64,000 bases of DNA from Ancylomarina subtilis (lineage in GTDB: Bacteria; Bacteroidota; Bacteroidia; Bacteroidales; Marinifilaceae). A program made the position numbers and the translations under genes. Below, piece after piece: positions 3,615-15,516 of this stretch; position 1 is the first letter of the stretch; every line of letters starts with the position of its first letter. The notes beneath the pieces were generated by a model. It worked only from the letters and a program-made list of their open reading frames with translations. It made no database searches and was not told the origin of the DNA. The DNA lies in the NCBI RefSeq assembly GCF_004217115.1, contig NZ_SHKN01000001.1:186001-250000 (forward strand), read 5' to 3'.

Positions 3615-3937
3615 TCTAATTGTTTTAGCTGGTCTAAAGACAGTTAATATTTGTTTTTTGTAATAATGTATTTGTTAATGGTCATCCGTATCGATTCTTA
3701 AAAATGAGACATCAGGACCGAATGAATTTGTACAAAAATAGCAAAAAATGGGAGACTAGAAAGTGATAAATGCCTTGTTGACATGTGTTGGATAATATGA
3801 TGTTGCTGACTTGGAGTATGAGGTTTTGGTGAGCTTCTGTGGGAAAAGGGCAAAAAAATAAGTGTATCTCTTATTGTTGAGGGATACACTTACTTAAATA
3901 TTGGTGTTTTATGCAAACACAGCAGGAATCAGAATCG
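3615..3937. other. Intergenic region with a -7 element and a terminator
   Basis: This 323-bp gap holds two signals. A TATTTTTG element on the minus strand (3733-3740) could start the C69 peptidase transcript, although no good TTTG lies at the right distance. A hairpin (3860-3868 AAGTGTATC with 3883-3891 GATACACTT), followed on the minus strand by seven T, ends the 3938-4348 transcript. I see no credible gene. Confidence 0.6.
3851..3891 (-). terminator. Intrinsic terminator of the 3938-4348 gene
   Basis: Nine-base arms AAGTGTATC/GATACACTT plus an inner CTC/GAG pairing form a hairpin. On the minus strand a T7 tract follows. It lies about 47 bp past the stop codon. Confidence 0.85.
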
Positions 3938-12267: not shown

Positions 12268-13179
12268 TTAGAACAAGCCTTCTGTAGAAAGGTATCGCTC
12301 TCCCGTATCGTAGTTAAATGTTAAGATTCTGGCATTTGCTCCAAATTCCTCTTTTTTCTTATTTATAGCTGCTAAAGAGGCACCCGTTGAAATACCAGCC
12401 AGAATTCCTTCTTCTTTGGCTAGTTTTCTGACCATAGAGAAAGCTTCTTCTTGCGATACCTTTATAGCACCATCAAGGACGTTAAGATTTAAATTTGCAG
12501 GAATGAATCCAGCTCCAATTCCCTGTAGGGGGTGAGGTCCTGGAGCACCACCACTAATAACAGGGGAAGCTTCCGGTTCTACGGCAAATACTTTTAAGTT
12601 TGGAAATTTGGCTTTTAATATTTCGCCCACACCTGTGATGTGGCCTCCTGTTCCCACACCTGTAACAAGATAATCTATTCCGTCAGGAAAATCATTGATG
12701 ATTTCCTGAGCTGTTGTTTGTCTGTGGATTTCTACATTCGCTTCATTGTCGAATTGTGAAGGCATCCAGCTGTTTTCGTTGGCCTGAATCAATTCTTCAG
12801 CTTTAGCGATGGCACCTTTCATACCCAATTCGCGAGGGGTTAAAACAAATTCAGCCCCATAAGCAGACATCAGTTTTCTACGTTCAATCGACATGGAATC
12901 AGGCATAACAAGGATCAGTTTGTAGCCTTTAACCGCTGCAACCATAGCTAAGCCAACACCCGTATTCCCCGATGTTGGTTCAATAATAGTGGCGTCTTTT
13001 TTTAGTATGCCATCTTTCTCGGCCTGTTCGATCATCGAAAGGGCAATTCTATCTTTAATACTACCACCAGGATTGTTGCGTTCAAGCTTGATCCAGGCTT
13101 TTGTGTTTTGTCCCAGTACCTTGTTGATTTTTACAACAGGCGTTTTTCCGATATTCTCTAAAATAGTGTCTAATTTCAT
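12268..13179 (-). CDS. cysK: Cysteine synthase A (O-acetylserine sulfhydrylase)
   Basis: PLP enzyme that makes L-cysteine from O-acetylserine and sulfide. The 303-residue protein has the full family pattern. Lys42 in [10 protein letters not shown] forms the PLP Schiff base, [11 protein letters not shown] binds the substrate carboxylate, [10 protein letters not shown] binds the PLP phosphate, and [11 protein letters not shown] and GISTGAS complete the site. It lies 28 bp downstream of the serine acetyltransferase gene and shares its transcript, so both enzymes of the pathway come under the poly-Cys leader at 14151-14258. CysK and CysE commonly associate as a complex. Confidence 0.97.
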
Positions 13180-13207: not shown

Positions 13208-14047
13208 TTAAATTTGAAAATCGATGATATTGCTTTCATCGATATTTGATCTGACCTTTATTTTATGTGTGTGATAAACCAATGAATTCGAATCAACACT
13301 TGATGTCAACCACACATTACCTCCAATGATGCTGTTTTTGCCAATGATGGTGTCTCCGCCGAGGATGGTTGCATTTGAATAAATGATAACATTGTCCTCA
13401 ACGGTAGGGTGACGTTTCTTTTTTGCCAGACTCTTTTTTACTTGCAAAGCACCAAGCGTAACCCCTTGATATATTTTAACATTGTTTTTTATTAGGGCAG
13501 TTTCACCAATAACAACGCCGGTACCGTGATCTATAAAAAAGGATTCTCCAATTTGCGCACCAGGATGAATGTCGATACCTGTTTTTGAATGAGCATATTC
13601 GCTCATTAGTCTCGGAATAATAGGAATTCCGGCTTTATGGAGTTCATGGCTGAGTCGGTACACCATAATGGCAAAAAAACCGGGATAGGAAACAATGACT
13701 TCGCCCAGCGTTCTTGCTGCAGGGTCGAAATCCTGAATGGCCTGAGCATCTAATAAGAGTTCTTTATAAACCTTAGGTAGAGTTATCATAAATTGTTTTG
13801 ATAAATCATCAATCGATTTATTGAGCTTTTCTTTGACGGGAAGAAGCAAGAGTTTTAAATGCGTTTCCAATTGTACCAAAAGAGCTTCCTGTGCGCAATG
13901 ACTCTTCGACCTTCGGGCACTGATTGGAAACAAGGTGTTCATGGCTTCTTCAACAAAATTTTGACTTAAATCTCTACTGGGAAGATCGAGTTCGTTAATT
14001 TCGCGTGAAGCTTGGAGCTCTTCCATAACTTTCGATAGATAGTTCAT
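13208..14047 (-). CDS. cysE: Serine O-acetyltransferase
   Basis: Transfers acetyl from acetyl-CoA to serine, the first committed step of cysteine synthesis. The 279-residue protein has a helical N-terminal half and a left-handed beta-helix of hexapeptide repeats (about 150-262), with IDIHPGAQIGESFFIDHGTG and VVIGETALI. The His in FIDHGTG is the conserved catalytic region. The C terminus ends in ESNIIDFQI; the terminal Ile is the type of residue that docks into the CysK active site. The N-terminal extension resembles the long SAT form of Bacteroidota. The gene is first in the cysE-cysK operon and follows a leader peptide with nine cysteines. Confidence 0.95.
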   Translation of the reverse strand: MNYLSKVMEELQASREINELDLPSRDLSQNFVEEAMNTLFPISARRSKSHCAQEALLVQLETHLKLLLLPVKEKLNKSIDDLSKQFMITLPKVYKELLLDAQAIQDFDPAARTLGEVIVSYPGFFAIMVYRLSHELHKAGIPIIPRLMSEYAHSKTGIDIHPGAQIGESFFIDHGTGVVIGETALIKNNVKIYQGVTLGALQVKKSLAKKKRHPTVEDNVIIYSNATILGGDTIIGKNSIIGGNVWLTSSVDSNSLVYHTHKIKVRSNIDESNIIDFQI

Positions 14048-14082: not shown

Positions 14083-14113
14083 AATTTGGGGTGCAGAAAA
14101 ACTGCCCAATTTA
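14083..14113 (-). terminator. Candidate attenuator hairpin upstream of cysE
   Basis: On the minus strand, AATTGGGCAG and CTGCACCCCAAATT fold back around a TTTTT loop, with small bulges. TCTCCTTTTAC follows. The hairpin lies 37 bases after the stop of the poly-Cys leader and 36 bases before the cysE start, the position expected for an attenuator. The T-tract is short, so whether it terminates alone is uncertain. Confidence 0.45.
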
Positions 14114-14150
14114 AATTGAAAGTCTATAAAAAAGGATAAAACCTATAGAA

Positions 14151-14258
14151 CTAACAACAGGGGGTACAACAGCAGCAACAACAACAGTTTAAGTTGCTGG
14201 TCGAGAAAGATGTGTTTGAGTTGAAAGAGTTTAGTCGTGTAGACGCAAACAAATACAT
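14151..14258 (-). CDS. Poly-cysteine leader peptide upstream of cysE-cysK
   Basis: Short reading frame of 35 codons, ATG at 14258 and TAG at 14151-14153. The peptide begins MYLFASTRLNSF, continues as a Ser/Asn/Thr-rich stretch, and ends in seven consecutive Cys, Thr-Pro, and two final Cys: nine cysteines in its last eleven residues. It sits 103 bases before the serine acetyltransferase start on the same strand. Overlapping it, CAGCAAC (14193-14199) and GTTGCTG within the Cys codons form a perfect 7-base inverted repeat, and a second hairpin follows before cysE. This is the architecture of amino-acid attenuation: when Cys-tRNA is scarce, ribosomes would stall on the Cys codons and alter mRNA folding. 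Function is inferred, not shown. Poly-Cys leaders acting as cysteine attenuators are known in mycobacteria. Confidence 0.75.
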   Translation of the reverse strand: MYLFASTRLNSFNSNTSFSTSNLNCCCCCCCTPCC

Positions 14259-14334
14259 CTCAAAAACAGATTGAGATGTTGAATATGATGCGATATGACT
14301 ATTGTGTTCTCTCATTTGGAAATAAATTCTGAGA

Positions 14335-14342
14335 CAAATCTA
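14335..14342 (-). promoter_or_regulatory. -7 promoter element for the cysE-cysK transcript
   Basis: TAGATTTG on the minus strand fits TAnnTTTG. It would start transcription near 14329, leaving about 70 bases before the leader peptide. No clear TTTG lies 19 bases further upstream. The rest of the 380-bp gap (14048-14427) is occupied by the leader and attenuator. Confidence 0.4.
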
Positions 14343-14427
14343 AGGAATATTTTTCAATTTAATACTTCTTTGTCCGAATTGTTTTATGAAGTGTAATGAT
14401 ATGAACATAGTTTAAACGTTTTATCAT

Positions 14428-15516
14428 TTAAACATTCACTTTTAGTGCCATGGATTTAAATAAACACCAAACCTTCTCACCCTGAAAGAGTTTAAGTGAT
14501 TGACGCGATGTTTCGGTGATGGTTACTAATAATTTAAAGCCTACATCTACGAGACAATAGGTTTGATTTCCATGCTTGATAATTTGTAAAATAGTTCCCT
14601 CAAGTTGATTGCGAATGGAAACATTTTTTATCTGATTCAGGGCAATGGCAATATCTTCAGGACGAAGAGAAACATTGATTTCATCTCCTTTTTCAAAATG
14701 TTGCAATTGCTTATTTCGTTTGATCTTGATTATGCCCTTTGGGGTTGTTTTGCTTAATTCGAAGTAATCCGTATCAATGTGTTCAATTTTGAAAGGAATC
14801 ATGTTGTTTAATCCGGATTCTTCCATAATATCGATAAGCAAATCCTGTTCGATCAAATCGAGATAATTGCCTTGTGCTATAATTTGCCCATCTTTTACAA
14901 GGAGTAGTTTTTGACTTAGATTTAAAAGATCCGGTAAGTCATGACTAACCACCAGAATAGGCAGTTTCAGTTTCTGATTTATTTTAATGAGATAGGGGAT
15001 AATCTGCCGGCGTAATGATGCATCGAGGGCAGAAAAGGGTTCATCCATGAGTAAAAGTCGGGGTGAAGATAGCAGGCTGCGGCCAATGGCAACGCGTTGT
15101 TTTTCTCCACCAGATAGTTGTTTGGGGAATTTTGTGAGGAGAGTATCTATTTCCAGTAATTGAACAACCTCTTCGAGACTGATTTGTTGTTTGTCTTTTT
15201 TAATATATCGAGTGGCAAAAAGTAAATTTTGGTGCACATTCATGTGTGGGAATAAGCGCCCTTCTTGAAATACGTAACCTATTTTTCTCTTATGCGAAGG
15301 CGTGAATGTCTTTGTTTCACTATCGTCTAAAATATCATTGCCAATTGCGATCTGACCTTCGTCAAGTCTTTCTAATCCGGCAATCAGTTGTAAAAGACTC
15401 GATTTTCCAGCACCTGAAGCACCAAAAATCCCCGTAATGCCATCTGAAAAGTTGGCCTTCATATCTAAAGTGAAGTTGTCTTTAGACCATTTTATATTGA
15501 TAGAAAGTGTTGTCAT
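14428..15516 (-). CDS. modC: Molybdate ABC transporter ATP-binding protein
   Basis: ATPase subunit that powers molybdate import. The 362-residue protein has Walker A FGASGAGKSS (about 34-41), Q-loop VFQEGRLFPHM, signature LSGGEKQRVAIGRSLL, Walker B LLLMDEPFSALD and switch His in VVSHD. The C-terminal region (about 285-360) is a MOP/TOBE domain (LRPEDIAIA; GTILQIIKHG), which binds oxyanion and gives feedback control in ModC proteins. The start codon overlaps the modB stop by four bases, so the two are translationally coupled. Confidence 0.95.
   Translation of the reverse strand: MTTLSINIKWSKDNFTLDMKANFSDGITGIFGASGAGKSSLLQLIAGLERLDEGQIAIGNDILDDSETKTFTPSHKRKIGYVFQEGRLFPHMNVHQNLLFATRYIKKDKQQISLEEVVQLLEIDTLLTKFPKQLSGGEKQRVAIGRSLLSSPRLLLMDEPFSALDASLRRQIIPYLIKINQKLKLPILVVSHDLPDLLNLSQKLLLVKDGQIIAQGNYLDLIEQDLLIDIMEESGLNNMIPFKIEHIDTDYFELSKTTPKGIIKIKRNKQLQHFEKGDEINVSLRPEDIAIALNQIKNVSIRNQLEGTILQIIKHGNQTYCLVDVGFKLLVTITETSRQSLKLFQGEKVWCLFKSMALKVNV

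Follow-up and report, generated by a model that had tools for sequence, protein, structure and literature searches.

Short open reading frames (ORFs) with runs of cysteine codons near their stop codons are found before actinobacterial cys operons, in Mycobacterium and P. acnes, and before cbs of B. longum (Seliverstov 2005, PMC1262725). No terminators were found in these leaders, and Rho was considered as one possibility (PMC1262725). Later work on the mycobacterial poly-Cys leaders, as cited in PMC9031893 and PMC13236596, describes cysteine-responsive control; the study of actinobacterial poly-Cys leaders by Canestrari (2020) enters here through the papers that cite it. The uORFC-8-2 motif before cysS of Rhodobacterales combines two Cys codons with an intrinsic terminator (PMC8632094). 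For Bacteroidota there are general hints of leader-peptide attenuation (PMC9723704, PMC7366714). A cysteine attenuator in this phylum was not found described in the literature that could be searched, in agreement with the original prediction, which knew of no such example. Control of biosynthesis by amino acids is poorly described in Bacteroidota, and a cysteine regulon comprising cysE-cysK and a cbs-like gene is now directly testable.

The DNA analysed here (the window) is a stretch of 64 kb from Ancylomarina subtilis, in which a leader ORF lies on the minus strand between modC (14428-15516) and cysE, 103 nt before the latter. The features of this locus are as follows.

13208..14047, minus strand: cysE, serine O-acetyltransferase, 279 aa, first gene under the proposed control; NCBIfam EpsC NF041874, over cut-off
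12268..13179, minus strand: cysK, cysteine synthase A, 303 aa, second gene; TIGR01139, over cut-off
14151..14315, minus strand: leader ORF of 54 codons, MREHNSHIASYSTSQSVFEMYLFASTRLNSFNSNTSFSTSNLNCCCCCCCTPCC; in 21 loci of Marinifilaceae the start, the frame and the terminal Cys run are all retained
14154..14186, minus strand: run of seven Cys codons, followed by Thr-Pro, two further Cys codons and TAG; synonymous TGT/TGC variation and whole-codon length changes in relatives
14335..14342, minus strand: promoter element TAGATTTG for the leader transcript, of the -7 type of Bacteroidota; TAnnTTTG in 20 of 21 orthologous leaders

Against the TIGR01172 cysE model the cysE product gives an E value of 1.8e-48, yet stays under that model's cut-off. 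A strong intrinsic terminator is located 3' of cysK. We put at about 0.86 the probability that the leader is a cysteine attenuator, in which charged Cys-tRNA would be sensed by the stalling of ribosomes on the Cys run. A cysteine-sensing leader before cysE-cysK, as the original prediction had proposed, is strongly supported because the leader is conserved in three genera, because a second leader precedes a cbs-like gene, and because 13 relatives carry complete attenuators at the same gene.

Comparison with described leaders

The window's leader shares with the actinobacterial leaders a Cys run near the stop codon, a short ORF placed before cysteine genes including cbs, and the absence of a terminator; the predicted position of the ORF, close to or directly at the RNA's 5' end, is similar. 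It differs in belonging to another phylum, in its longer ORF with a covarying internal hairpin, in a predicted 5' leader of about 12 nt where the actinobacterial ones are leaderless, and in the cysE-cysK operon that follows. Ancylomarina differs further by tandem uORFs before its cbs-like gene. The resemblance of the ORFs to the actinobacterial ones concerns the Cys run. By analogy, the window leader would work in the manner of these actinobacterial leaders; we do not assign it to their kind, since the start is probably not leaderless and the read-out is a prediction.

Likeness to other attenuators is more partial. uORFC-8-2 likewise has neighbouring Cys codons in a leader ORF and has been interpreted as ribosome-mediated attenuation of a cysteine-related gene, but it has an intrinsic terminator and only two Cys codons, is alphaproteobacterial, and controls a tRNA synthetase. 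The trp, his and thr attenuators also place consecutive end-product codons in a leader peptide before the genes that make this product; in the window's leader, in contrast, a terminator/antiterminator pair is missing and the codon run extends to the stop, although 13 Bacteroidales relatives match the full anatomy. With tnaC of E. coli the window's leader may share a ribosome stalled at the end of the leader that could block Rho, the role of Rho in the window being predicted. Nevertheless, tnaC responds to free tryptophan by means of a specific arrest peptide, whereas the window's leader would sense codon identity and tRNA charging.

The leader ORF and its conservation

The 3' end of the leader ORF reads TGT TGT TGT TGC TGC TGT TGT ACC CCC TGT TGT TAG (14186-14151), so that Cys is the final codon before the stop. 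This ORF, on the strand of cysE-cysK and ending in seven Cys, Thr-Pro and two Cys, is present as originally described, and so is the promoter element upstream of it, TAnnTTTG, at 14342-14335. The length of 35 codons first given to the ORF has to be revised, since relatives keep the ATG equivalent to 14315, which makes 54 codons, and the ATG at 14258 is internal. The N-terminal codons and the predicted short 5' leader of about 12 nt are retained in relatives. In 20 of 21 leaders TAnnTTTG occurs 17-20 nt 5' of the uORF ATG, and it is absent elsewhere in the 330 nt before cysE. From the position of this -7 element a 5' leader of about 12 nt is predicted, and the start is probably not leaderless.

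Orthologous leaders were traced via cysE in 21 loci from the Ancylomarina, Marinifilum and Labilibaculum groups, referred to below as window-type leaders; they are related and hence not independent. A sense-strand leader ORF with an ATG and an in-frame Cys run was found at all 21 cysE loci, at 92-104 nt from cysE. That the Cys frame is kept in 21 of 21 orthologous loci is beyond chance, and codon-level conservation of this frame, suggested as a check by the original prediction, is thereby borne out with the ATG kept throughout. The run varies only by TGT/TGC exchange and by insertion or deletion of whole codons. Cys codons reach the stop in the 21 loci, with some Labilibaculum adding a Trp after the last Cys, and the most divergent Ancylomarina leader retains CCCWCCCIPHC. 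Outside the Cys run the genera share almost no peptide sequence, and the count of Cys covers a wide range; because the rest of the peptide diverges in this way, the comparison speaks for codon content over a functional peptide. No match was returned by a Pfam search of the leader peptides. The leader is missing from the more distant Marinifilaceae cysE (L049) and from many other Bacteroidales cysE loci.

The part of the uORF 3' of its internal hairpin H1 (14151-14255) is rich in Ser, Thr, Asn, Phe and Gln, whose codons contain little G. The three genera agree in this despite their differing sequence; the composition looks as if G were avoided at the RNA level. A block 5' of the promoter, which looks conserved by eye, reads AAACAATTCGGACAAAGAAGTATT in the window (14361-14384) and has equivalents in L037-L048, with AACAGAAATATTCGGAC or AACAGAAAAATTAAGAC in the other genera; it is perhaps an operator or an activator site.

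Hairpins of the leader RNA

Hairpins were recognised in the leader of the window at the following positions.

14255..14279, minus strand: hairpin H1 (ACATCT...AGATGT), inside the uORF, +37 to +61 from the ATG; similar position in 21 loci
14173..14199, minus strand: hairpin H2, a dyad in which CAGCAAC (14199-14193) pairs with the Cys codons GTTGCTG (14179-14173)
14086..14109, minus strand: hairpin H3, GGGCAG-TTTTT-CTGCACCC, between uORF and cysE, with no U-run after it; kept in six Ancylomarina leaders

H1 spans about +36 to +62 relative to the ATG in 21 of 21 loci, with differing sequences. In the 15 sequences from Marinifilum and Labilibaculum it consists of seven pairs, with 98% of cells paired and four of the seven pairs changed on both sides. 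Its covariation score in these two genera, obtained for two helices tested jointly, was 0.348 and exceeded all shuffles, for which the value was 0.172; slid controls gave 0.03-0.08. In Ancylomarina H1 has one compensated position. The dyad over the Cys codons and the second hairpin between ORF and cysE had both been named in the original prediction, and both are present. Pairing like that of H2, between codons before the Cys run and the first Cys codons, recurs in the other genera with varying strength and register. The stem of H3, positioned at 14107-14088, shows some compensatory change in the most divergent Ancylomarina leader and is kept only in that genus, being not conserved in Marinifilum or Labilibaculum. 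No match to the leader was found in Rfam 15 up to an E value of 1.

Proposed mechanism and read-out

In the proposed mechanism, the leader ORF begins shortly after the start of the cysE-cysK transcript and presents 7+2 Cys codons at its stop. When charged tRNA-Cys is plentiful, ribosomes would complete the ORF and depart, and expression of cysE-cysK would be kept low; when it is scarce, ribosomes would stall on the Cys run and cysE-cysK would be expressed. Sequence comparison supports the leader ORF, the Cys run, the spacing and the link to cysteine genes. Translation of the window leader, stalling on it and the direction of control we infer, the stalling sensor because established attenuation biology and the comparative data both point to it.

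It had also been proposed that stalling changes the folding of the leader. This step is not supported for window-type leaders, in which neither an intrinsic terminator nor an antiterminator was found, nor, in the part of 18 folded orthologues considered, any masking of the cysE start that depends on stalling. Within the attenuator explanation, Rho-dependent early termination is the favoured read-out, at slightly less than an even chance. The stalled ribosome would block Rho by its place between a C-rich, G-poor segment of the uORF and the polymerase, or by masking the RNA around the stop codon. The candidate loading site is the following.

14187..14252, minus strand: C-rich, G-poor part of the uORF that separates H1 from the Cys run, a candidate site for the loading of Rho; 66 nt with 20 C and 6 G

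Rho is favoured because the protein is present (a rho gene is encoded; TIGR00767, 644 bits, over cut-off), because of these C-rich and G-poor 66 nt, because C exceeds G before cysE, and because no terminator is conserved. The skew of the segment is in the top 0.9% of 66-nt windows in the 64 kb, and ranges from 0.9 to 18% across 18 orthologues, which is suggestive. The skew before cysE is moderate, with C exceeding G in the preceding 92 nt at 21 of 21 window-type loci, which are related, versus 20 of 33 cysE loci that lack such a leader. Against the Rho view, a stalled ribosome does not obviously mask the whole 100 nt leader. The covarying H1 may pause the polymerase and thereby give the first ribosome time to draw level, a role for this hairpin that is a guess.

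A translational read-out of the same sensor, in which with cysteine available a fold would mask the cysE start and stalling on the Cys run would free it, is clearly less probable. The closest described leaders, those of Mycobacterium, are reported as acting on downstream translation (PMC9031893, PMC13236596), and the lack of a terminator in window-type leaders would fit. However, when leaders of 18 orthologues were folded under constraint with the ribosome free, stalled or terminated, the predicted accessibility of the cysE start was about the same in the three states (0.44-0.64, in part of the 18), and no pairing between uORF and cysE start conserved across genera was found. Moreover, Bacteroidota are not reliant on Shine-Dalgarno sites.

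Leaders before other Bacteroidales cysE genes

A sample of 295 Bacteroidales genomes contains 52 with this cysE at an E value of 1e-60 or better, and 49 loci besides the one in the window were tested for an upstream uORF, defined by an ATG start, at least 4 Cys within six codons, and a position no more than 500 nt upstream of cysE. Such a Cys-rich uORF was found at 16 of the 49 loci, with none on the antisense strand and a mean of 0.09 (maximum 1) in dinucleotide shuffles; 33 of the 49 sampled loci have none by this four-in-six test. The search for Cys-run ORFs before cysE in other Bacteroidia, which had been recommended with the original prediction, thus gives 16 of 49 other Bacteroidales loci besides the 21 of 21 window-type ones.

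Thirteen of the 16 (L177, L184, L189, L190, L192, L205, L206, L207, L208, L211, L212, L213 and L215) have an intrinsic terminator, consisting of a GC-rich stem of 10-12 bp and a U-run, which follows closely on the uORF and lies right in front of cysE. Complementarity exists between the uORF end and the first arm of this terminator, with a mean z of -2.6 against shuffled segments. Judged by these elements, the 13 relatives, from other Bacteroidales families, have the anatomy of a textbook trp-type attenuator, here for cysteine. Their Cys run is followed by 6-18 codons, whereas it abuts the stop in window-type leaders, L175 and L203 and is one codon away from it in L022; no comparably strong terminator was found in window-type leaders or in L175, L203 and L022. 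The position of the codon run, in mid-ORF or at the stop, is therefore tied to the presence or absence of the terminator, and two read-out designs are encountered on one gene within one order.

Classical attenuation through an intrinsic terminator, as in trp and his and in the 13 relatives, is an unlikely reading of the window's leader itself. Exactly this anatomy is present before cysE in relatives of the same order, and H3 and a hairpin that covers the stop codon may be decayed terminators; but a strong stem with a U-run at a conserved place is absent from the 21 window-type leaders, although the same scan finds it, with stems of 10-12 bp, in 13 of 13 relatives, and also after cysK. Nor was antiterminator pairing found in window-type leaders, where there is no terminator to compete with.

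On the cysE tree, which has long branches and on which the labels of L185, L193 and L209 were assigned by eye as these fail the four-in-six test, no fewer than 5 changes are needed for the terminator kind, and no fewer than 5 for the terminator-free kind. Because of these numbers, both leader kinds appear to have been gained or lost repeatedly. Rather doubtfully, Bacteroidales may have switched repeatedly between a terminator kind with the Cys run in mid-ORF and a terminator-free, Rho-read kind with the run at the stop, independently of the actinobacterial design and with the addition of a selected in-ORF hairpin and a three-uORF version before the cbs-like gene. How terminator-free poly-Cys leaders work, asked for Actinobacteria in 2005, becomes approachable by the comparison of such neighbours.

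Poly-Cys peptides can bind metals, and the frame is conserved, as it would be if the ORF product were a functional Cys-rich small protein, of metal or redox binding, merely co-transcribed with cysE. This explanation is nonetheless very improbable, given a body that diverges between genera, a varying number of Cys, the absence of a Pfam match, and the presence of unrelated Cys-run peptides at the same place together with terminators.

A third kind of short ORF before cysE ends in SNGGVCMCC (or GGVCMC, GGVDMC) and forms one clade on the cysE tree (L054, L055 at 3817-3909, L056 and L059/L183), with no terminator seen at these leaders. The conserved residues other than Cys make nascent-peptide arrest possible for them. 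The GGVCMC leader pattern has 3 matches in 395 genomes of the phylum, none of them leader-like.

Cysteine-codon runs elsewhere and the cbs-like gene

A class-wide DNA search for six Cys codons matched 228 of 395 genomes and was dropped as non-diagnostic; a Cys run in DNA is not diagnostic alone because most of the inspected matches are (YTG)n repeats that span long frames in a different register. Poly-Cys can accordingly be read at many places in these genomes, but a chance trinucleotide repeat without function is refuted for the window's run by the conservation tests, since background runs lie mostly within long genes and out of frame whereas the window run is intergenic, started by an ATG and in frame at 21 loci, and the wider Bacteroidales set gave 0 antisense and 0.09 shuffled equivalents.

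In the genome of A. subtilis (4.0 Mb), a pattern of four Cys codons has 59 occurrences in about 40 separate runs, most of them within or overlapping longer frames and not in frame with a start. Three runs reach at least 6 Cys codons, two of them with an in-frame ATG in a short ORF outside long genes. Both of these ATG-framed runs precede cysteine-synthesis genes, a property that was not built into the search. A row of twelve TGT codons at G000:C1:115233-115268 (L112), between two genes and without an in-frame ATG, is probably a plain repeat.

The second ATG-framed run, MNKMNSIENIFSATHTCCCCCCC-stop at G000:C1:871136, is located about 490 nt before a gene for a PLP enzyme of 331 aa, whose best NCBIfam match is cystathionine beta-synthase, below the full-length cut-off of that model. 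Two further short ORFs, ending in VCCCSC-stop and TVCCG-stop, are found between this ORF and the cbs-like gene, so that the gene is preceded by the tandem uORFs MNKMNSIENIFSATHTCCCCCCC, MSISNQTGMPHFSRFVCCCSC and MKFLQIKPYHLRISTTVCCG (L131, reverse complement, 1444-1824). Only two species, closely related to each other, yielded this leader: A. salipaludis keeps all three uORFs, the last almost unchanged, and this conservation is modest evidence because A. salipaludis is the closest relative. Pairing like that of H2 also occurs in the cbs leader, as GCAACAC/GTGTTGC.
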